A stretch of DNA of 59,828 nucleotides from assembly GCA_037388465.1 (NCBI GenBank), contig JARRKE010000007.1, positions 1 to 59,828 of the forward strand. The letters run 5' to 3'. The stretch is from Gammaproteobacteria bacterium (GTDB lineage Bacteria > Pseudomonadota > Gammaproteobacteria > SpSt-1174). This document shows, piece by piece, positions 46,537 through 56,990 of this stretch. The stretch's first letter is position 1. Each line of letters begins with the position of its first letter. Position numbers and translations under genes: made by a program. Under the pieces are notes generated by a model, which saw nothing but the letters and a program-made list of their open reading frames with translations, was not told where the DNA came from and did no database searches.

Positions 46537-47034
46537 ATGGCGGGGCACCCTCTGGTCGGTGTAGTGATGGGCTCGGACAGCGATTGGTTCGTGATGCGCC
46601 ATGCGGTCGAGCAGCTCGAACACTTCGGCGTGCCGCATGAATACCGGGTGGTTTCCGCGCATCGCACGCCCGATCTGCTGTTCGAGTACGCCGAGAATGC
46701 GGCCTCGCGCGGCCTGCGTTGCCTGATCGCGGGCGCCGGCGGCGCCGCGCATCTGCCCGGCATGCTCGCGGCCAAGACCGCGCTGCCCGTCCTCGGGGTG
46801 CCCGTGCCGACGCGTTATCTCAAGGGGCAGGATTCGCTGTTCTCCATCGTGCAAATGCCCAAGGGCGTGCCGGTGGCGACCTTTGCCATCGGCGAGGCCG
46901 GCGCGGCGAACGCCGGCTTGTTCGCCGTCTCCATCCTGGCCGGCGAGGACAAGGCGCTCGCCGAGCGTCTGCACGGTTTCAGGCAGGCGCTGCGCGACAG
47001 CGTGCTGGGCATGCAGCTGCCGCCGGCGGAATGA
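46537..47034 (+). CDS. purE: N5-carboxyaminoimidazole ribonucleotide mutase
   Basis: PurE converts N5-CAIR to CAIR in purine synthesis. The 165-residue class I enzyme has the start [20 protein letters not shown], the active-site [16 protein letters not shown] near residue 40, and [18 protein letters not shown] near 67. It ends in an ATGA overlap with purK. It starts just three bases after the dctP stop, so it is probably read from the TRAP promoter or an internal one. Confidence 0.97.
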
Positions 47035-48170
47035 GCTCGGCGGGTCCTATCCTGCCGGGCGCCACGCTCGGCATCCTGGGTGGCGGGCAGTTGGGCCGCA
47101 TGTTTACGGTCGCGGCCCGTACCCTGGGTTATCACGTGGTCGTGCTCGATCCCGACGCCGACAGTCCGGCGGGACGCATGGCGGACGAACACCTGCACGC
47201 CGCCTATACCGATACCTGGGCGCTGGATCAGCTGGCCGCCACGTGTGCGGCGATTACCACTGAGTTCGAAAACATCCCCGCCGCCGTGATGGAGCGGCTG
47301 GCGCAAAGCGTTCCGGTGCGTCCGTCCGCGACGGCGCTGTCCAAGACCCAGAACCGCATTCACGAAAAGACCTTCATCCAGCAGACCGGACTGGCGACGG
47401 CCCCGTTTCATGCCGTCGAGAGCGAGGTGGACCTGGAGCAGGCCTTCGCCGCCGTCGGGGCACCCGCCATTCTCAAGCGCGCTTCACTGGGCTACGACGG
47501 CAAAGGGCAGGTCGGCGTCGACAGTCTGGCGACATTACAGCAGGGCTTTGCCGACCTGGGGGGCGTGCCCTGCGTGCTGGAGCGGCGCGTCCAACTCGAA
47601 CGCGAGGTCTCGGTGGTGCTGGCGCGCAACTGCCACGGCGAGTCGCGCTGTTACCCGGTGGCCGAGAATCGCCATGTGGGGGGCATTCTGCACACCAGTA
47701 TCGTGCCCGCCCGGGTGCCCGAGGCGCTGGCGAATCAGGCGCAGGTCATGGCGGTGCAACTGGCGGACGCTTTGGATTACTGCGGTGTGCTGGCGGTGGA
47801 GTTTTTTGTCGTCGACGGGCAGTTGCTGGTGAACGAGCTGGCGCCCCGGCCACACAACAGCGGTCACTACACCCTCGATGCCTGCGTCACCTCCCAGTTC
47901 GAGCAGCAGGTGCGCATGGTCTGCGGCCTGCCGTTCGGCGATACCCGCCTGCTGTCGCCGGTCGTGATGGTCAACCTGCTGGGAGATTTGTGGGGCGCGA
48001 CACAGCCGGACTGGCTGGCCCTGCTCAGCGATGCCAGCGCCAAGCTGCATCTCTACGGCAAGCGCGAGGCCCGTCCGGGCCGCAAGATGGGGCATTTCTG
48101 CGTCCTGGACACCAACGTGGACGATGCCCTGACGCGGGCCGACGCCCTGTTCAGCCAACTCGCGGGCTAA
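47031..48170 (+). CDS. purK: N5-carboxyaminoimidazole ribonucleotide synthase
   Basis: PurK carboxylates AIR with bicarbonate and ATP to N5-CAIR, feeding PurE. The 379-residue ATP-grasp protein opens with [20 protein letters not shown], and has [14 protein letters not shown]-like [15 protein letters not shown] near residue 143 and [20 protein letters not shown] near 266. The start at 47031 overlaps the purE stop; a longer reading within purE is discarded. It is convergent with cbbR. Confidence 0.96.
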
Positions 48171-48215: not shown

Positions 48216-49142
48216 TCACGCCTGCGGGCGTGCCGGTATGAGGGACTTGGCGTAACCGCGGGCCTCGTCCAGGACAAAGGCGCGGAACGCCAGCGCCACC
48301 GGGGACAGGCGCTTGCCCTTGCGGAACACCAGATACCAGTGGCGGATAATCGGGAAGTCCTCCACATCCAGCGTGACGAGTCGTCCGGTTTCCAGTTCCA
48401 GCGCGGCGGTATGAATGGAGATGATGCCGAGACCGAGACCGGCTTCGACCGCCTGTTTGATGGCCTCGTTACTGCTCATCTCCATCCCGGTCGGCAGGGG
48501 CATACCGTGAAGGGCGAAAAACCGCTCGATCGCACCCCGCGTTCCCGAACCCAGTTCGCGCACCACGAAGGTTTCCTCGGCGAGGTCCTGCAACGGAATG
48601 TTGCGGCGTGAGGCCAGCGGGTGTTCGGGAGAGGCGACGATTACCAGCGGGTTTTCCATGAAGGCGAGGGCCTCCAGATCCATGCCGGACGGCGGTTCGC
48701 CCATGATGACGAGGTCGGTTTCGTTGTTCTCCAGCTGCCGCAACAGGCTTTCCCGGTTGGTGACGTCCAGGCTGACCGTGACGCCTTCGAAGCGGTGGGA
48801 GAAATCCGCCAGCAGGCGGGTGGTGAAGTAATTGGCCGTGGTCGCCACCGAGATATTGAGGTGGCCGCGCTGCCCGCCCTTGAGGGTGGCGATGACGTCG
48901 CCGGCCTCTTTGACCAGACCGGAGATGCGCCGGCCATAGTCGAACATTTCCTGACCGGCCTCGGTGAGAAAGATGCGTTTGCCGACCTGCTCGAACAGCG
49001 GCAGGCCGAGATTGTCCTCCAGCTGCTTGACCTGCATGGAGACCGCGGGCTGGGTGAGATGCAGCTCCTCCGCCGCACGGGTGAAGCTCAGATGCCGTGC
49101 CACCGCCTCGAAAACCTGAATCTGACGTAGGGTGAGATGCAT
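48216..49142 (-). CDS. cbbR: LysR-type regulator CbbR
   Basis: The 308-residue regulator has the N-terminal LysR helix-turn-helix (TLRQIQVFEAVARHLSF, then TQPAVSMQVKQLE near residue 34) and a C-terminal ligand-binding domain. It is divergent from cbbL, the hallmark of CbbR, which activates cbb operons in response to metabolites such as RuBP, PEP or NADPH, depending on species. The ATG at 49142 begins MHLTLRQ; a longer in-frame extension into the operator is not credible. The operator and promoter between the genes are described separately. Confidence 0.93.
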   Translation of the reverse strand: MHLTLRQIQVFEAVARHLSFTRAAEELHLTQPAVSMQVKQLEDNLGLPLFEQVGKRIFLTEAGQEMFDYGRRISGLVKEAGDVIATLKGGQRGHLNISVATTANYFTTRLLADFSHRFEGVTVSLDVTNRESLLRQLENNETDLVIMGEPPSGMDLEALAFMENPLVIVASPEHPLASRRNIPLQDLAEETFVVRELGSGTRGAIERFFALHGMPLPTGMEMSSNEAIKQAVEAGLGLGIISIHTAALELETGRLVTLDVEDFPIIRHWYLVFRKGKRLSPVALAFRAFVLDEARGYAKSLIPARPQA

Positions 49143-49157
49143 GATGAATAGATTAAA

Positions 49158-49189
49158 CCATAAATTAATACTTATGGTAATAATCATAA
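49158..49189. promoter_or_regulatory. CbbR operator
   Basis: CCATAA (49158-49163) and TTATGG (49172-49177) form a perfect inverted repeat with an 8-bp spacer, fitting the TNA-N7/8-TNA pattern described for CbbR sites. A third half-site CATAA (49185-49189) forms a second dyad with TTATG. The cluster lies just upstream of the cbbL -35 box and beside the cbbR start, the usual location for activation and autorepression. Confidence 0.65.
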
Positions 49190-49309: not shown

Positions 49310-50731
49310 ATGGCAGTGAAGAGCTACAGCGCGGGTGTTAAAGAATACCGCGAAACGTACTGGATGCCCGATTACACGCCCAAGGAAACCGATCTCCTGG
49401 CGTGCTTCAAGATCACCCCGCAGCCGGGTGTGCCGCGTGAAGAGGCCGCGGCCGCGGTGGCCGCCGAGTCTTCGACCGGTACCTGGACCACGGTGTGGAC
49501 CGACCTGCTGACCGATCTGGACTACTACAAGGGCCGTGCCTATGCCATCGAGGACGTGCCCGGCGACGACACCTGCTTCTATGCCTTCATCGCCTACCCG
49601 ATCGACCTGTTCGAGGAAGGCTCCGTCGTCAACGTGTTCACCTCGCTGGTGGGTAACGTGTTCGGTTTCAAGGCCGTGCGCGCCCTGCGTCTGGAAGACG
49701 TGCGCTTCCCCATCGCTTATGTGATGACCTGTAACGGTCCGCCGCACGGCATCCAGGTCGAGCGCGACATCATGAACAAGTACGGCCGTCCGATGCTGGG
49801 CTGCACCATCAAGCCCAAGCTGGGCCTGTCGGCCAAGAACTACGGCCGCGCCGTGTACGAGTGCCTGCGCGGCGGCCTGGACTTCACCAAGGACGATGAG
49901 AACGTCAACTCCCAGCCGTTCATGCGCTGGCGTCAGCGTTTCGACTTCGTCATGGAGGCCATCGACAAGGCCGAGCGCGAGACCGGCGAGCGCAAGGGTC
50001 ACTACCTGAACGTCACTGCGCCGACCCCGGACGAGATGTTCAAGCGCGCCGAGTACGCCAAGGAGATCGGTGCCCCGATCATCATGCACGACTACATCAC
50101 CGGTGGCTTCTGCGCCAACACCGGTCTGGCCCAGTGGTGTCAGGACAACGGAGTGCTGCTGCATATCCACCGCGCCATGCACGCCGTGCTCGACCGCAAC
50201 CCGCACCACGGTATCCACTTCCGTGTGCTGACCAAGATCCTGCGTCTGTCCGGCGGTGACCACCTGCACACCGGCACCGTGGTCGGCAAGCTCGAGGGCG
50301 ACCGCGAGTCCACTCTGGGCTGGATCGACCTGCTGCGCGAGTCCTACGTCAAGGAAGACCGCAGCCGCGGCATCTTCTTCGATCAGGACTGGGGTTCCAT
50401 GCCCGGCGCCTTCGCCGTCGCCTCCGGTGGCATCCACGTCTGGCACATGCCTGCGCTGGTCACCATCTTCGGTGATGACTCGGTGCTCCAGTTCGGCGGC
50501 GGTACCCTGGGCCACCCCTGGGGCAACGCGGCCGGCGCCGCGGCCAACCGTGTCGCGCTGGAAGCCTGCGTCGAGGCCCGCAACCAGGGCCGTCAGCTGG
50601 AGAAGGAAGGCAAGGAGATCCTTACCGAGGCGGCCAAGAGCAGCCCAGAGCTGAAGGCCGCGATGGAGACCTGGAAGGAAATCAAGTTCGAATTCGACAC
50701 CGTCGACAAGCTGGACGTTGCCCACAAGTAA
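49310..50731 (+). CDS. cbbL: RuBisCO large subunit, form IA
   Basis: CbbL carboxylates ribulose 1,5-bisphosphate to two 3-phosphoglycerates. The 473-residue chain has the N-terminal [18 protein letters not shown], the [11 protein letters not shown] active-site strand near residue 164, the carbamylated Lys at about 194 in [12 protein letters not shown], and loop 6 in [14 protein letters not shown] near 325. [10 protein letters not shown] and the overall sequence are of the proteobacterial form IA type. Neighbouring cbbQ/cbbO, and no carboxysome genes, place it in the IAq group with a cytosolic enzyme. Codon use is strongly biased towards C-ending codons, a sign of high expression. Confidence 0.98.
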
Positions 50732-50764: not shown

Positions 50765-50817
50765 CAGCTTGAATCGAATGCTTGATATCCCGAAACAGAT
50801 ATTTGAGGAAGCAACCA

Positions 50818-51174
50818 ATGAGCGAGATGCAAGATTACAAGTCGAGCTTGACCGATGAGTCCAGCCGCAAGTTCGAGACCTTCTCGTACCTGCCGGCCAT
50901 GGACAGCGAGCAGATTCGCAAGCAGGTCGAGTACATCGTCAGCAAGGGCTGGAACCCGGCCATCGAACACACCGAGCCGGAAAATTCCTTCGACCATTAC
51001 TGGTACATGTGGAAGCTGCCCATGTTCGGTGAGACCGACGTCGATAAGATCCTGGCCGAAGCCGAAGCCTGCCACAAGGCGCACCCGAACAATCACGTGC
51101 GTCTGGTCGGTTACGATAACTTCGCGCAGTCCCAGGGCGCCGCGATGGTCATCTACCGCGGCAAGGCCGCTTAA
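50818..51174 (+). CDS. cbbS: RuBisCO small subunit, form IA
   Basis: The 118-residue small subunit caps the L8 core. Motifs: [23 protein letters not shown] near residue 19, [16 protein letters not shown] near 58 and [15 protein letters not shown] near 95. Its length is that of form IA CbbS. The ATG at 50818 follows GAGGAAG; an in-frame ATG 12 codons earlier is outside the family N-terminus. It is followed by a strong terminator. Confidence 0.97.
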
Positions 51175-51200: not shown

Positions 51201-51235
51201 GCCCCTGGCCGGTCTCCGGACAGGGGCATTTTTTT
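51201..51235 (+). terminator. Rho-independent terminator after cbbS
   Basis: GCCCCTG (51201-51207) pairs with CAGGGGC (51221-51227), with an inner CCGG/CCGG extension, and is followed by A and seven T. It should end most cbbLS transcripts and keep activase genes at a lower level. Confidence 0.85.
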
Positions 51236-51359
51236 GCTTGAGTTTCAGATGTTGCAGGCCGGGGTTTATGGCTCGTACCTGTACGTGCTGCATGGTCCGA
51301 CCTGTACCATTTGAACGTTTCGCCATTTTTGATTCACGAGTGAACCGAGGGTTTTTGTC

Positions 51360-52166
51360 ATGAGTGATAAGAACATCGACCAGTACAAGATTGAGCAGGA
51401 GCCTTTCTACAAGGCCGTTGCCAACGAGATCGATCTTTATGAGGCCGCTTACCAGGCCCGCATGCCCGTCATGCTGAAAGGCCCGACTGGCTGCGGCAAG
51501 TCGCGCTTCGTCGAATACATGGCGTACAAGCTGGGACGCCCCCTGATCACCGTGGCCTGTAACGAGGACATGACTGCTTCCGATCTGGTGGGTCGCTTCC
51601 TGCTCGACGCCAGTGGTACGCGCTGGCAGGATGGCCCGCTGACCATCGCCGCGCGCATTGGCGCCATCTGCTACCTGGATGAGGTGGTCGAGGCACGCCA
51701 GGACACCACGGTGGTGATCCATCCGCTGACCGACCACCGCCGCACCCTGCCGCTCGAGAAAAAGGGCGAGCTGGTTGCCGCACACGAGGACTTCCAGCTG
51801 GTGATCTCCTACAACCCCGGTTATCAGAACCTGATGAAGGACCTGAAGCAGTCGACCAAGCAGCGTTTCGGCGCCCTGGACTTCGACTATCCCTCGGCCG
51901 AGGTCGAGACCGAGATCGTCGCCCACGAAACCGGGATCGATGCGGAGACCGCGGGCAAGCTGGTGCAGATCGCGCACCGTGCGCGCAACCTCAAGGGGCA
52001 CGGTCTGGACGAGGGTATCTCCACCCGTCTGCTGGTCTACGCAGGGCAACTTATCAACAAGGGCATCGATGCCCAGGCTGCCTGTGCCATGACCCTGGTC
52101 CGTCCGATTACCGATGACCCGGACATGCGCGATACGCTGGACGCGGCGGTCGGCACCTACTTCTGA
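51360..52166 (+). CDS. cbbQ: CbbQ, AAA+ RuBisCO activase ATPase
   Basis: The 268-residue MoxR-type AAA+ protein has Walker A GPTGCGKS near residue 41, Walker B ICYLDEV near 102 and an arginine-finger region following. CbbQ forms a hexamer that, with CbbO, removes inhibitory sugar phosphates from RuBisCO by ATP-driven remodelling. It is 185 bp downstream of cbbS; the terminator lies in that gap and a promoter of its own is likely within 51236-51359, although no clear hexamers were found. Confidence 0.96.
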
Positions 52167-52173
52167 TATCCGC

Positions 52174-52800
52174 ATGCGTCCGTTGGCGGAGTACGTCTCC
52201 AAACTAAAGCGGGACATCGTCTTCGAAGCGACGCTGAATGGTCGAGCGTTCCGCTTTCGCAGCACCTGGGGACTGTTCTCGCCGCGAGAAATCGACGAAG
52301 GCAGCCGCCTGCTGTTGCGGCATATCGAGGTGGCGCCCGATGCGGACTGCCTCGATCTGGGCTGCGGCTACGGGCCGATCGGCCTGACGCTGGCGAGTAT
52401 GGCGCCGCAGGGGCGCACGCTGCTGGCGGACAAGGATTTCGTGGCCGTGGAATACGCGCGCCGAAACATCGAGGCGAACCGGCTGGAAAACTGCGAGGCG
52501 CAACTCAGCAACGGCTTCGCACAACTGGGTGAGCGGCGTTTCGATCTGGTGGCCTCGAACATTCCGGCCAAGGTCGGGCGGGAACTGCTCTACATCCTGT
52601 TGTATGACGCCTGGCATCACCTCAACCCCGGTGGACGTTTCTACGTGGTCACGATCACCGGCTTGAGAGAATTCTTCGCCCGCGCCATGCGCGAAGTGTT
52701 CGGCAATTACGACAAGGTCAAGCAGGGCAGGCAGTACACGGTTGCCTGTGCCGTGCGTGACCCCCGGGCCGAAAAGCCCGGTGCCGTAAGCGAGGGTTAG
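52174..52800 (+). CDS. Class I SAM-dependent methyltransferase embedded in the cbbQ-cbbO operon
   Basis: The 208-residue protein has a small N-terminal region (FRFRSTWGLFSPREIDEGSR) typical of the MTS/RsmC-like methyltransferases, the SAM-binding motif CLDLGCGYGPIGL near residue 66, LADKDFVAVEYARRNIEAN near 88 and SNIPAKVG near 129 where RNA/protein N-methyltransferases have NPPF/Y. The substrate is unknown. It starts 7 bp after cbbQ and ends 2 bp before cbbO, so it is translated with the activase. Possibilities are RuBisCO or activase modification, or an unrelated rRNA methyltransferase caught in the operon. Confidence 0.85.
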   Translation: MRPLAEYVSKLKRDIVFEATLNGRAFRFRSTWGLFSPREIDEGSRLLLRHIEVAPDADCLDLGCGYGPIGLTLASMAPQGRTLLADKDFVAVEYARRNIEANRLENCEAQLSNGFAQLGERRFDLVASNIPAKVGRELLYILLYDAWHHLNPGGRFYVVTITGLREFFARAMREVFGNYDKVKQGRQYTVACAVRDPRAEKPGAVSEG

Positions 52801-52802
52801 CG

Positions 52803-55145
52803 ATGAAAATCGATCTGAGCGAATACGAGGACTGCATCCTAAACGGTGCTCCGGAGGTCAAGGAGGTCTTCGACGCGAGCTTCAATGAAGCCGCGCGCGT
52901 CATGGGCCCGCAGGGGCAGCATAACTATCTCGAAGGCGCGCGCGCCTTCTGCGAGCTGGGGCGCGGCCCCTATCTGGTGGCCGCCTGGCTGGAATCCATG
53001 CCCGCCGTGTGCAAGGAGGTGGGCGACGGTGTCATCCCGGATGTGGTGACCTCGGCCATGAAGCTGACCTCCATGGTCAGTGGCGAGGTGATCCGTCTGA
53101 TGCTCGGTACGCTGCCCACCGCCGCCCGGCGCCTGGGTGATTCCGAACTGCTGATCAAATACCTGGCGCTGATCCACCAGCTTTCCGCCAAGGTGCCGCG
53201 TGGCCTGCGCCCCATGCTGGAGCGCCTGGACGAGTTGCTCGGCAAGCTCACCCTGGGCGGTTTGCGGCGCTGGGCGTTGTGGGGCGCCCAGGCCTACGCG
53301 CGCGATTTCGCCAAGCAGACCGCCTACTTCAGCCTGGAATCACCGGACAGCCAGAAGATGCTGCAGCAGGAACGGCGCGGCACGTTGTTTGTCGATACCC
53401 AACGCAAACTCAATTTCTACCTGCGCGCCCTGTGGGGCCGGGATTTCTTCCTGCGCCCGACCTCCGGCGACTACGAGAGCCGCGAAGGTATGCGACCTTT
53501 CCTGGAGCAGGGCGTGGTGCACGTGCCGGACGCTTATGACGACGTCAACGGCATCCCCGGCCTGGAACTGTACCGTGCCGCCTGTGCCCATGCCGCGGCT
53601 CACCTGTCGTACACTCTGGCGCCGATCTCTGCCGAGGCGCTGAATCCGGTGCAGATGTTCCTGATCGGCATGATCGAGGACGCGCGCGTCGAACATCTCG
53701 CCATCGCCGAATTCCCCGGCCTGCGCAAACTGTGGCGTCAGTTCCACGATTTGCCGCGCGAAGGCGATGTGGACCCGGCCGTCGCCGTGCTGGAACGTTT
53801 GGCCGGTGCGCTGCTGGCCGGTCAGGCACAGCCCGGGGACGACCCGCTGATCGGCGAGACGGTGGAGGAGTTCAATACCCGGATATCCCAGGATGCGACA
53901 AACAGCCAGCTTTCCTGGGATATCGGTGTGACGCTCTACAACCGCCTCAACGAGCACCTGTCCGTACCTTCGCTGCGTCTGCTGGAGCAGACCCTGAACA
54001 TTCCCTATCGCGACGATAACCGCATCATCTGGGAATTCGCGGAAAATGTCTGGGACGAAACGGCCGAGTACGTTCCGGCCAGCCAGCGGCAGGTGCGCAA
54101 GACGGTATCCGCGATCGAGATGGCCAACGAGGTCGACTGCGAACTGGCCGGCGACGATGCGCAGGAAATCTGGCGCCTGGAGACGGAACTGTTCCCGTAC
54201 GAGGACAACGGCGTCAGCTACAACGAGATGGAGGGCAAGGAACCCGTCTCGGAGCCCTATCACTACAACGAGTGGGACTACCAGGTGCAGCTGTACCGAC
54301 CCGACTGGGTGACGGTGCTGGAAAAGCGCCAGTCCAAGGGCGACCCGGAAGACATCGACCAGATACTGGTCGAGCACAAGCCGATCGCCAGTCGCCTGCG
54401 CCACATCATCGACGCCCTGATTCCCCAGGGCATCATACGCAAACGCCATCAGGAGGACGGCGACGAGATCGACATCAATGCCGCCATACGCGCGATGATC
54501 GATCTGCGCATGGGCGAGATGCCCGACCAGCGCATTAACATCCGTTACGAGCGCAAACTGCGCGATCTGGCCGTGTTGGTGCTGCTCGACCTGTCCGAAT
54601 CCACCAACGAGGTGTTGGGCGATTCCGACCGGCCGGTCATCCAGCTGGCGCGCGAGGCCACCGCATTGCTGTCCTGGGCGGTGGACGGCATCGGCGACCC
54701 CTTCGCCATTCACGGTTTTGCCTCCGACAGTCGCCATGACGTCCAGTACTACCGGTTCAAGGATTTCGATGCACCCTACGACGATGAGGTGCGCGCCCGC
54801 CTGGCCGGCATGAAGGGCGGCTATTCCACGCGTATGGGCGCCGCGTTCCGGCATGCGGCCCATTATCTTTCGCACCAGCCGCAGCAAAAGAAGCTGCTGC
54901 TGCTGGTGTCCGACGGCGAGCCGGCGGATATCGACGTCAAGGACCCGCAGTACCTGCGCCACGACACTAAGAAGGCTGTGGATGAACTGGGGCGTGAGGG
55001 CATCCGCACCTACTGCCTGACCCTGGACCCCCATGCTGACGACTACGTCTCGCGCATTTTCGGGCCGAACGGCTACACCGTGGTCGATCACGTGCAGCGC
55101 CTGCCCGAGCGTCTACCCTCGTTGTTCGCGAGCCTCACGAGCTGA
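52803..55145 (+). CDS. cbbO: CbbO, RuBisCO activase adaptor with von Willebrand A domain
   Basis: The 780-residue protein is the CbbO partner of CbbQ. The C-terminal vWA domain has the MIDAS motif LLDLSESTNE (Asp near residue 596), used to grasp RuBisCO. The N-terminal half is helical, with ALWGAQAYARDFAKQ near 158 and a central stretch of variable acidic sequence. The ATG at 52803 follows directly after the methyltransferase stop. The length is close to known CbbO proteins. Operon order cbbQ-methyltransferase-cbbO-carbonic anhydrase is tight throughout. Confidence 0.94.
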   Translation: MKIDLSEYEDCILNGAPEVKEVFDASFNEAARVMGPQGQHNYLEGARAFCELGRGPYLVAAWLESMPAVCKEVGDGVIPDVVTSAMKLTSMVSGEVIRLMLGTLPTAARRLGDSELLIKYLALIHQLSAKVPRGLRPMLERLDELLGKLTLGGLRRWALWGAQAYARDFAKQTAYFSLESPDSQKMLQQERRGTLFVDTQRKLNFYLRALWGRDFFLRPTSGDYESREGMRPFLEQGVVHVPDAYDDVNGIPGLELYRAACAHAAAHLSYTLAPISAEALNPVQMFLIGMIEDARVEHLAIAEFPGLRKLWRQFHDLPREGDVDPAVAVLERLAGALLAGQAQPGDDPLIGETVEEFNTRISQDATNSQLSWDIGVTLYNRLNEHLSVPSLRLLEQTLNIPYRDDNRIIWEFAENVWDETAEYVPASQRQVRKTVSAIEMANEVDCELAGDDAQEIWRLETELFPYEDNGVSYNEMEGKEPVSEPYHYNEWDYQVQLYRPDWVTVLEKRQSKGDPEDIDQILVEHKPIASRLRHIIDALIPQGIIRKRHQEDGDEIDINAAIRAMIDLRMGEMPDQRINIRYERKLRDLAVLVLLDLSESTNEVLGDSDRPVIQLAREATALLSWAVDGIGDPFAIHGFASDSRHDVQYYRFKDFDAPYDDEVRARLAGMKGGYSTRMGAAFRHAAHYLSHQPQQKKLLLLVSDGEPADIDVKDPQYLRHDTKKAVDELGREGIRTYCLTLDPHADDYVSRIFGPNGYTVVDHVQRLPERLPSLFASLTS

Positions 55146-55150
55146 TCGGG

Positions 55151-55783
55151 ATGGATCCTATCGCTAGCCTGATTGCAGGATTCGCCGGCCTGAGTTCACG
55201 TCAGTACCGGGAGAGCAGGAAGTTCCGTCAGCTGGTGGAACGCGGCCAGTCGCCGCGCATTGTGCTGGTGGCCTGCTCGGACTCGCGGGTCGATCCCTCG
55301 CTGATGCTGGACTGCAATCCGGGGGATCTGTTCGTGATCCGCAACGTCGCGAATCTGGTGCCGCCCTGCGAGGAAAGCGGTACCTATCACGGCACCAGTG
55401 CCGCATTGGAATACGCGATCTGCCAGCTCGGCGTGGAACACGTGATCGTCATGGGGCATGCACGTTGTGGCGGCATTCAGGCGCTGATTGACGGTCCTTC
55501 GGATACGGGCGGCTTTATCGGCCGATGGGTCTCGCTGGCCAAGCCCGCGCTGGAGAAGACGAACCGGCAACTGGGACCGTCCGCCGATCCGGCCGAGCGT
55601 GCCCAATGCTGTGAATTGGAATCCATCAAGCAGTCGCTGATCAACCTGAAGACCTTTCCCTGGATCGAGGAACGGCTGGAAAGCGGCCGGCTCCAGCTGC
55701 ACGGCTGGTATTTCGACCTCGTGGAAGGCCGTTTGCTGGGCCACGATACGGCCGATGACGCCTTCCACGTACTGACGCCGTAG
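55151..55783 (+). CDS. Beta-carbonic anhydrase
   Basis: The 210-residue zinc enzyme interconverts CO2 and bicarbonate in the cytoplasm. Zinc ligands are visible: Cys41 and Asp43 in ACSDSRVDPS, His102 and Cys105 in GHARCGG. There is no signal peptide. It starts five bases after cbbO, so it is likely co-transcribed with the activase. Its location suggests a role in supplying inorganic carbon to RuBisCO or anaplerotic enzymes. Confidence 0.95.
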   Translation: MDPIASLIAGFAGLSSRQYRESRKFRQLVERGQSPRIVLVACSDSRVDPSLMLDCNPGDLFVIRNVANLVPPCEESGTYHGTSAALEYAICQLGVEHVIVMGHARCGGIQALIDGPSDTGGFIGRWVSLAKPALEKTNRQLGPSADPAERAQCCELESIKQSLINLKTFPWIEERLESGRLQLHGWYFDLVEGRLLGHDTADDAFHVLTP

Positions 55784-55880: not shown

Positions 55881-56297
55881 ATGGATATACGGGAAACCTT
55901 TCGGCGCGGAACGGTGTTGGAGCGCATTGCCAGCACGCTGCCGGCCGACATCTATAACCGCGCCCATCTCTTGCTGAGCCGCTGCGGTCGCAACTGCCTG
56001 TTCGTGCCTATCCGGGCCATCCAGTACATGGCGGTGATCGACGCGGAGGAAATCATCTTCGTGGACGGCCAGGGCGACCGTTCGGTTGAGCTGGCCTGGC
56101 GTGAATTTCGTCCCCAGGCGCGCGATGCGTTGCACGAGCCGGTGCCGTTCATGGTTGAGATCAATCAGATCAAGGGCTACGAAACGATGAAATTCCTGCA
56201 GGGCGAGTTCGCCAAGGCGTTGCTCGTACTGGAGCAGCGTTCCCGTGCGACGCAGGGTGCGACAACGGCCTCGGTACACAAGCTCGACCGGCATTGA
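55881..56297 (+). CDS. Conserved hypothetical protein downstream of carbonic anhydrase
   Basis: The 138-residue cytoplasmic-looking protein has no signal peptide or membrane helix. GGGAGGAGGG immediately upstream is a strong ribosome-binding site, and codon use fits the neighbours, so it is a real gene. The middle of the chain has alternating hydrophobic beta-like strands (FVPIRAIQYMAVIDAEEIIFVDG) and the C-terminus is helical. I do not recognise the family. It follows carbonic anhydrase by 97 bp and precedes the CbiM-like permease by 24 bp. Confidence 0.6.
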   Translation: MDIRETFRRGTVLERIASTLPADIYNRAHLLLSRCGRNCLFVPIRAIQYMAVIDAEEIIFVDGQGDRSVELAWREFRPQARDALHEPVPFMVEINQIKGYETMKFLQGEFAKALLVLEQRSRATQGATTASVHKLDRH

Positions 56298-56321: not shown

Positions 56322-56990
56322 ATGAATATCACCCCGGATCAGGTCTTCGGCGATTTCCGCCTGCTGGACGATACGATTTACGTGGTCGTGCTGGCGCAGG
56401 CCGTGCGCCTGGCGCCGTGGCGGCGTCTGCTGCACAGCGAACAGCTGAATATGTACCTCATATCCATCGGCGCGCTGGTCGCCTTGTGGAGCCTGCGGGC
56501 CGGGGTCGAGCCGGGACTGGATCTGCACTATCTCGGACTTACGGCGCTGACGCTGGTGTTCGGCTGGCAACTGGCGGTGATCGCCGGCACCGCCGCCCTG
56601 CTGGTCCAGGGCTGGCTGTTTTCCGATCTGCACTGGTCGGTGTTTTCGGTCAATGCCCTGATCACCATGGTCGTACCGGTGGCGGTGACCTATGCCTTGT
56701 ATCGTCTGGCCGACCGCAAGCTGCCTAACCACTTTGCCGTGTATATCTTTTTTACGGTGTTCTTCAACGCCATTATCGCGATCCTGCTCAGCACCCTGCT
56801 GTTCACCGGTTTGTTGCTGATCAACAATGCGTATCCGCTGCACACCCTGGTGCGCGATTACCTGGCCTACCTGCCACTGGTGTTGTTGCCCGAGGCCTTG
56901 CTCAACGGCATGATCATGACGGTCGTCGTGGTCCTCAAACCACAGTGGGTCGCCTGCTTCGACCGCGAACGTTACCTGGACGCGAACTGA
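56322..56990 (+). CDS. CbiM-like energy-coupling permease (solitary)
   Basis: The 222-residue protein has about six membrane helices, for example LNMYLISIGALVALWSL, LGLTALTLVFGWQLAVIAG and FTVFFNAIIAILLSTLLFTGLLL, with the general layout of CbiM/ECF permease-type proteins. Two Gly/Pro and Arg-rich loops occur. No ECF ATPase or T component lies near, so it may act alone or with distant partners. Metal (Ni/Co) uptake is the usual role of relatives but cannot be shown here; the N-terminal Met-His-Ile start needed for metal binding in true CbiM is absent. Confidence 0.6.
   Translation: MNITPDQVFGDFRLLDDTIYVVVLAQAVRLAPWRRLLHSEQLNMYLISIGALVALWSLRAGVEPGLDLHYLGLTALTLVFGWQLAVIAGTAALLVQGWLFSDLHWSVFSVNALITMVVPVAVTYALYRLADRKLPNHFAVYIFFTVFFNAIIAILLSTLLFTGLLLINNAYPLHTLVRDYLAYLPLVLLPEALLNGMIMTVVVVLKPQWVACFDRERYLDAN

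Follow-up and report, generated by a model that had tools for sequence, protein, structure and literature searches.

A methyltransferase gene lies between cbbQ and cbbO, which encode the subunits of the RuBisCO activase, in the stretch of gammaproteobacterial DNA analysed here (59,828 nucleotides of contig JARRKE010000007.1; hereafter the window). Our preferred reading, to which we assign a probability of about one half, is that this gene (MT) encodes a general, conserved methyltransferase of the RsmC fold, likely acting on RNA, which has been recruited repeatedly for co-expression with autotrophy genes. The data show the fold family, the single copy, the conserved motif, the occurrence in genomes without RuBisCO and the repeated independent linkage; we infer RNA as the substrate and co-expression as the reason for the linkage. 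The enzyme would perform a general task and not a RuBisCO-specific one, most likely methylating a guanine of rRNA or of another RNA. Its gene would have been drawn independently into or beside cbbQ/cbbO in several autotrophic lineages. It is now probably co-transcribed with the activase genes and made during autotrophic growth.

The preliminary description of the locus had proposed that the enzyme modifies RuBisCO, CbbO or CbbQ, with chance insertion of the gene as the alternative. Our results indicate that the link between MT and the cbb genes is not due to chance, and that an action on RuBisCO is possible but unsupported. RuBisCO activases set the active fraction of the carbon-fixing enzyme, and a methyltransferase gene in the same slot in several lineages is a definite candidate for a modifier. 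To our knowledge, no modifying enzyme is known for bacterial RuBisCO activases.

Organization of the locus

The features of the locus are summarized in Table 1. The ORFs and Pfam matches confirmed the order cbbQ-MT-cbbO-carbonic anhydrase, all on the plus strand, and reproduced exactly the gaps of 7, 2 and 5 bp reported previously. Judging from this spacing, co-translation of MT with the activase is probable. The LysR-L-S-Q-O order and the cbbQ and cbbO families are the same as in the cbbLSQO operons of chemoautotrophs, from which the window differs by the presence of MT between cbbQ and cbbO; none of 60 other cbbQ loci contained MT. The hairpin between cbbS and cbbQ suggests attenuation between the RuBisCO genes and the genes downstream. 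Since it is strong, terminator-like and followed by seven T residues, cbbQ-MT-cbbO-carbonic anhydrase may form the end of the RuBisCO operon and be expressed at a lower level than the genes before it.

Table 1. Features of the cbb locus and its flanks, in window coordinates.
Feature	Position	Strand	Description
purE	46537..47034	+	AIR carboxylase; left flank of ancestral-type locus
purK	46719..48170	+	Left flank, common to the G110 MT locus (purE-purK-MT-CbiM)
LysR-type regulator	48216..49187	-	Divergent; CbbR-like, under NCBIfam cut-off
cbbL	49310..50731	+	RuBisCO large subunit, form I
cbbS	50782..51174	+	RuBisCO small subunit
Intrinsic-terminator-like hairpin + T7	51201..51236	+	Between cbbS and cbbQ; -22 kcal/mol, z -2.6
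cbbQ	51360..52166	+	RuBisCO activase subunit, MoxR-type AAA+; CbbQ_C PF08406 6.7e-35
MT	52174..52800	+	RsmC/MJ0882-type SAM methyltransferase, single domain, 208 aa; motif I DLGCGYGPIG, motif IV NIPAKVG
cbbO	52803..55145	+	Activase subunit with VWA domain; VWA PF00092 7.7e-6
Beta-carbonic anhydrase	55151..55783	+	Pro_CA 1.3e-48
CbiM-like membrane protein	56322..56990	+	Right flank, common to MT loci without cbb genes

A 138-aa ORF located 3' of the carbonic anhydrase gene (55881-56297) matched neither Pfam nor NCBIfam. The window genome also contains a second gene for a form I-like RuBisCO large subunit (G000:C19:1473-2399), and PF00016 gives a third match.

Linkage of MT to cbbQ and cbbO

Our class sample comprised 276 genomes drawn evenly from the Gammaproteobacteria, each with a completeness of 90% or more. 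MT was located in or beside a cbbQ/cbbO operon in 8 genomes, in six arrangements. The order cbbLSQ-MT-cbbO was found in the window genome, G267 and G217, and with a gene for a SulP-family transporter between MT and cbbO (cbbLSQ-MT-SulP-cbbO) in G107. In form II operons, MT preceded cbbM-Q-O in G212 and followed it in G255. In G115, the order was cbbLSQO-YqhA-x-histidine phosphatase-MT, and in G129 MT and cbbO stood alone, with MT about 20 bp before cbbO and cbbLSQ about 25 kb away. A scan of the wider collection added the cbbQ-MT-cbbO order in L003, where the contig ends inside MT, and in L005, as well as MT-cbbM-Q-O in L008 and L037 and cbbO-x-phosphatase-MT in L078. The transporter gene of G107 (L085, 10119-11903 of the reoriented locus; PF00916 and STAS) possibly encodes a bicarbonate transporter.

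Within the class sample, MT was found within 7.5 kb of cbbQ 7 times as compared to 0.36 expected (p 1e-7), and in the cbbQ-cbbO slot 4 times as compared to 0.02 expected, where the expected counts assume random gene placement and ignore shared ancestry. Many of the genomes are fragmented MAGs, several with MT at a contig end, so that linkage is undercounted if anything. Thus, linkage to cbbQ/cbbO is above chance and, as described below, has several origins, as would be anticipated for an accessory factor. The genome search suggested in the preliminary description recovered the cbbQ-MT-cbbO arrangement in L003, L005, G107, G267 and G217, but MT is kept away from cbbQ/cbbO in 46 of its 54 carriers. 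A homologue occurring mostly away from cbb genes, which that description had named as evidence against its proposal, is therefore what we observe.

The cbbQ-cbbO slot tolerates insertions. In the 60 cbbQ loci without MT, cbbO mostly follows within less than 200 bp, whereas 8 of the 60 carry another insert of at least 425 bp (L160, L164, L187, L156, L165, L195, L169 and L171). These encode GxxExxY proteins, a four-helix-bundle protein, a cytochrome c, a chitinase-like protein and a protein of about 100 aa with no Pfam match, the latter found in two genomes of the same family. A gene for a four-helix-bundle protein, foreign to the operon and unrelated to MT, is reported to occupy the same slot in Thiocapsa bogorovii (PMC10892978). 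Such inserts are compatible with a positional accident, in which the gap is a tolerant landing site, MT happens to reside near carbon-metabolism genes, and the order reflects chance or hitchhiking without functional meaning. The frequent location of MT near fba/pyk or purEK, and flanks in the window that match a locus without cbb genes in G110, agree with this explanation. However, the excess over expectation near cbbQ and in the slot, the separate origins and the further independent arrangements all speak against it, as does the observation that MT, alone among the gap inserts examined, is a conserved gene of the chromosome that usually resides elsewhere. We therefore regard accident as improbable, and the chance insertion considered previously is made unlikely by both the counts and the trees.

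Origins of the arrangement

The exact cbbQ-MT-cbbO order was found in five separate cbbO lineages. The five cbbO genes do not form a clade (AU test, p 1.4e-5), and supported branches force five label changes. A single ancestral arrangement inherited together with cbbO was thus rejected. In the tree of cbbL and cbbQ, four changes were needed, of which three were forced. The MT tree, which is weakly resolved, needed ten changes for the linked state; neither a single origin of all six MT genes in the slot (p 0.24) nor vertical descent with G110 (p 0.26) was rejected. Taken together, the linkage of MT to cbb genes has at least 3-5 separate origins. The five recurrences of the exact slot exceed what co-expression alone obviously predicts, and in this respect they weigh against our preferred reading.

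The window cbbO pairs with the cbbO of G051, a genome without MT, with 100% support and 83% identity. The cbbL and cbbQ genes of the window side with genomes other than G051, hinting that cbbO had an origin separate from cbbL/cbbQ. G110, which belongs to the same family as the window genome, has the cbb-free MT locus purE-purK-MT-CbiM. The same flanks, purE-purK and the CbiM-like gene, enclose the window locus, suggesting that the cbb genes came to MT and not the reverse. By this comparison, a purEK-MT-CbiM locus seems to have been in place first, and the cbb genes of the window to have been added on either side of MT. Three histories can be considered, namely repeated recruitment of MT, repeated replacement of cbb genes around MT, or many losses of an ancestral arrangement; of these, the last fits less well than the other two.

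Distribution of MT

MT was identified in 54 of the 276 genomes, in a single copy in each. Bona fide RuBisCO was present in 44 of the 54 genomes with MT as compared to 92 of the 222 without it (Fisher p 1e-7, phylogeny not corrected for), with RuBisCO counted by Pfam hits. Five PF00016 hits were weak and were set aside as RuBisCO-like; one of these came from an MT carrier. The remaining 10 carriers have neither true RuBisCO nor CbbQ, as scored with PF08406, which takes in NorQ-like proteins too, and their motif IV is the same as in the other carriers. A dedicated RuBisCO/CbbQO accessory factor, confined to genomes with both, is excluded by these carriers. Together with the mostly unlinked location of MT, they indicate that MT is no dedicated activase component. 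In a whole-phylum sample, matches to MT were obtained in members of the Gammaproteobacteria only. The search of plasmids for MT returned only distant homologs from Firmicutes.

Protein family and fold

MT belongs to the MTS family (PF05175; 9.2e-35, 120.2 bits, gathering cut-off 23). Its scores were below the cut-offs for RsmC (NF007023, 73.8 bits, cut-off 295), where only positions 171-337 of the profile were covered and the full-length two-domain architecture was not matched, and below the equivalog cut-offs for RlmG (NF011577, 60.2 bits, cut-off 468) and PrmA (TIGR00406, 34.5 bits, cut-off 183). The best solved relatives by sequence were MJ0882 (1dus, 5.5e-26), RlmG and RsmC, the last two with phmmer values of 1e-14 to 1e-17, and a single-domain homolog from Listeria showed 31% identity. 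The AlphaFold model (pLDDT 91) matched MJ0882 with a Z score of 29, RsmC with 24-27 and RlmG with 26, followed by PrmC, TrmM, METTL21, PrmA and Trm5 at about 19-22.

The SAM site GCGYGPIG and the NIPA motif were correctly reported in the preliminary description (DLGCGYGPIG and NIPAK). NIPA does replace NPPF, but this is no divergence of the window copy: in 80 relatives and the genome sample, motif IV reads N-[ILVM]-P-A-K-x-G in nearly all members of the subfamily. MT shares the catalytic-domain fold, sequence similarity and the FS..D.G and FGN elements with RsmC (16S rRNA m2G1207) and RlmG (23S m2G1835), but these enzymes have about 340-380 aa with an N-terminal domain and NPPF, whereas MT has 208 aa, no N-terminal domain and N[ILVM]PA. 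The single-domain proteins of the MJ0882, SasO and Firmicute type resemble MT in architecture and are its best match in sequence and structure; they carry NPPI-RAGK where MT has NIPA-KVG.

PrmA, the methyltransferase of ribosomal protein L11, acts on protein amines and has NILA as its motif IV. Its fold is common with MT (Z 19-20), although MT lacks its L11-binding domain. By sequence, N[ILVM]PA, without the first proline and the aromatic residue of NPPF, resembles this PrmA-type motif, and it leaves both RNA and protein substrates possible. The pI of the members ranges from 5.4 to 9.5 and gives no clue to the substrate. Should its substrate be RNA, MT would still define an uncharacterised subfamily of RsmC, distinguished by a motif IV of a new kind and by a link with autotrophy that lacks an explanation.

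Substrate of the methyltransferase

Based on sequence and the structural model, rRNA methylation, the other outcome that the preliminary description had named as evidence against its proposal, would be the likeliest activity. We counted in favour of RNA that MJ0882, RsmC and RlmG rank as the nearest folds, ahead of protein methyltransferases (Z 20-22). The PrmA-like motif IV and the occurrence of MT alongside RsmC were counted against RNA and co-expression: two-domain RsmC/RlmG-like hits were present in about 8 of the 54 genomes with MT and about 22 of the 222 others, a distribution that is not complementary, and functional replacement of RsmC was rejected.

Single-domain SasO methylates G1051 of 16S rRNA, and RsmC methylates G1207 (preprint, PMC12637814). 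Both 16S genes read from MT carriers have C1051 and G1207, so that the SasO target is absent and the RsmC target base present. All 5 MT genomes with a detected 16S gene have C1051, and no G1051 was found in the 276 genomes, many of which seem to lack 16S in the assembly. A SasO-like G1051 methyltransferase was thus rejected where 16S was found.

A tentative alternative is that MT methylates CbbO, CbbQ or RuBisCO on a lysine, the N-terminus or a glutamine and thereby tunes activase assembly or action, with another protein as the target in carriers without RuBisCO. The enrichment with RuBisCO, the further linked loci with form II operons and a motif IV devoid of the aromatic residue are consistent with a protein target, and the gene is found immediately before cbbO in G129 even though cbbLSQ is distant. 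Above all, it retains weight because of the repeated exact placement beside cbbO. Against this, MT with an unchanged motif occurs in genomes without true RuBisCO or CbbQ, 92 RuBisCO genomes in the class sample and many CbbQO operons lack MT, the nearest folds are rRNA enzymes, and our comparison of CbbL, CbbS, CbbQ and CbbO revealed no residue that cleanly tracks the presence of MT. In addition, a study of the CbbQO activase of A. ferrooxidans used recombinant protein made in E. coli and does not mention methylation (PMC4660213). The modification proposed in the preliminary description is therefore unsupported by our data. That it amounts to post-translational control of a bacterial activase by an enzyme, acquired several times via the cbbQ-cbbO slot, is somewhat more doubtful still.

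Our search of the open-access literature, with subscription papers outside its range, retrieved no earlier description of the cbbQ-MT-cbbO arrangement, no relevant paper on methylation of bacterial RuBisCO and none on YbxB. The cbb3 operon of A. ferrooxidans contains "hyp3, 16S RNA methyltransferase family" (PMC6458275), a candidate MT ortholog that we did not use as evidence.

Genomic neighbourhoods of MT

In most genomes, MT follows purE-purK, adjoins hypCDE or lies between adk and slt/bolA. A second recurrent partner, in several families, is a histidine-phosphatase gene (PF00300), located directly upstream of MT in L078, L089, L103, L104, L109 and L136 and downstream in L093. This association, along with the general enrichment of MT in RuBisCO genomes, could indicate that MT acts, for instance in concert with the phosphatase, on a small molecule or on some other metabolic protein of autotrophs, and that the link is to metabolism and not to the activase. 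The architecture is RsmC-like, however, no metabolite candidate emerged, and neither the window nor the other cbbQ-MT-cbbO loci have a phosphatase gene beside MT, which renders a metabolic substrate improbable. In most purple sulfur bacteria, MT adjoins hydrogenase-maturation genes (Chromatiaceae loci such as L007, L027, L035 and L068), of which HypD was confirmed by Pfam and HypC- and HypE-like proteins were recognized by sequence.
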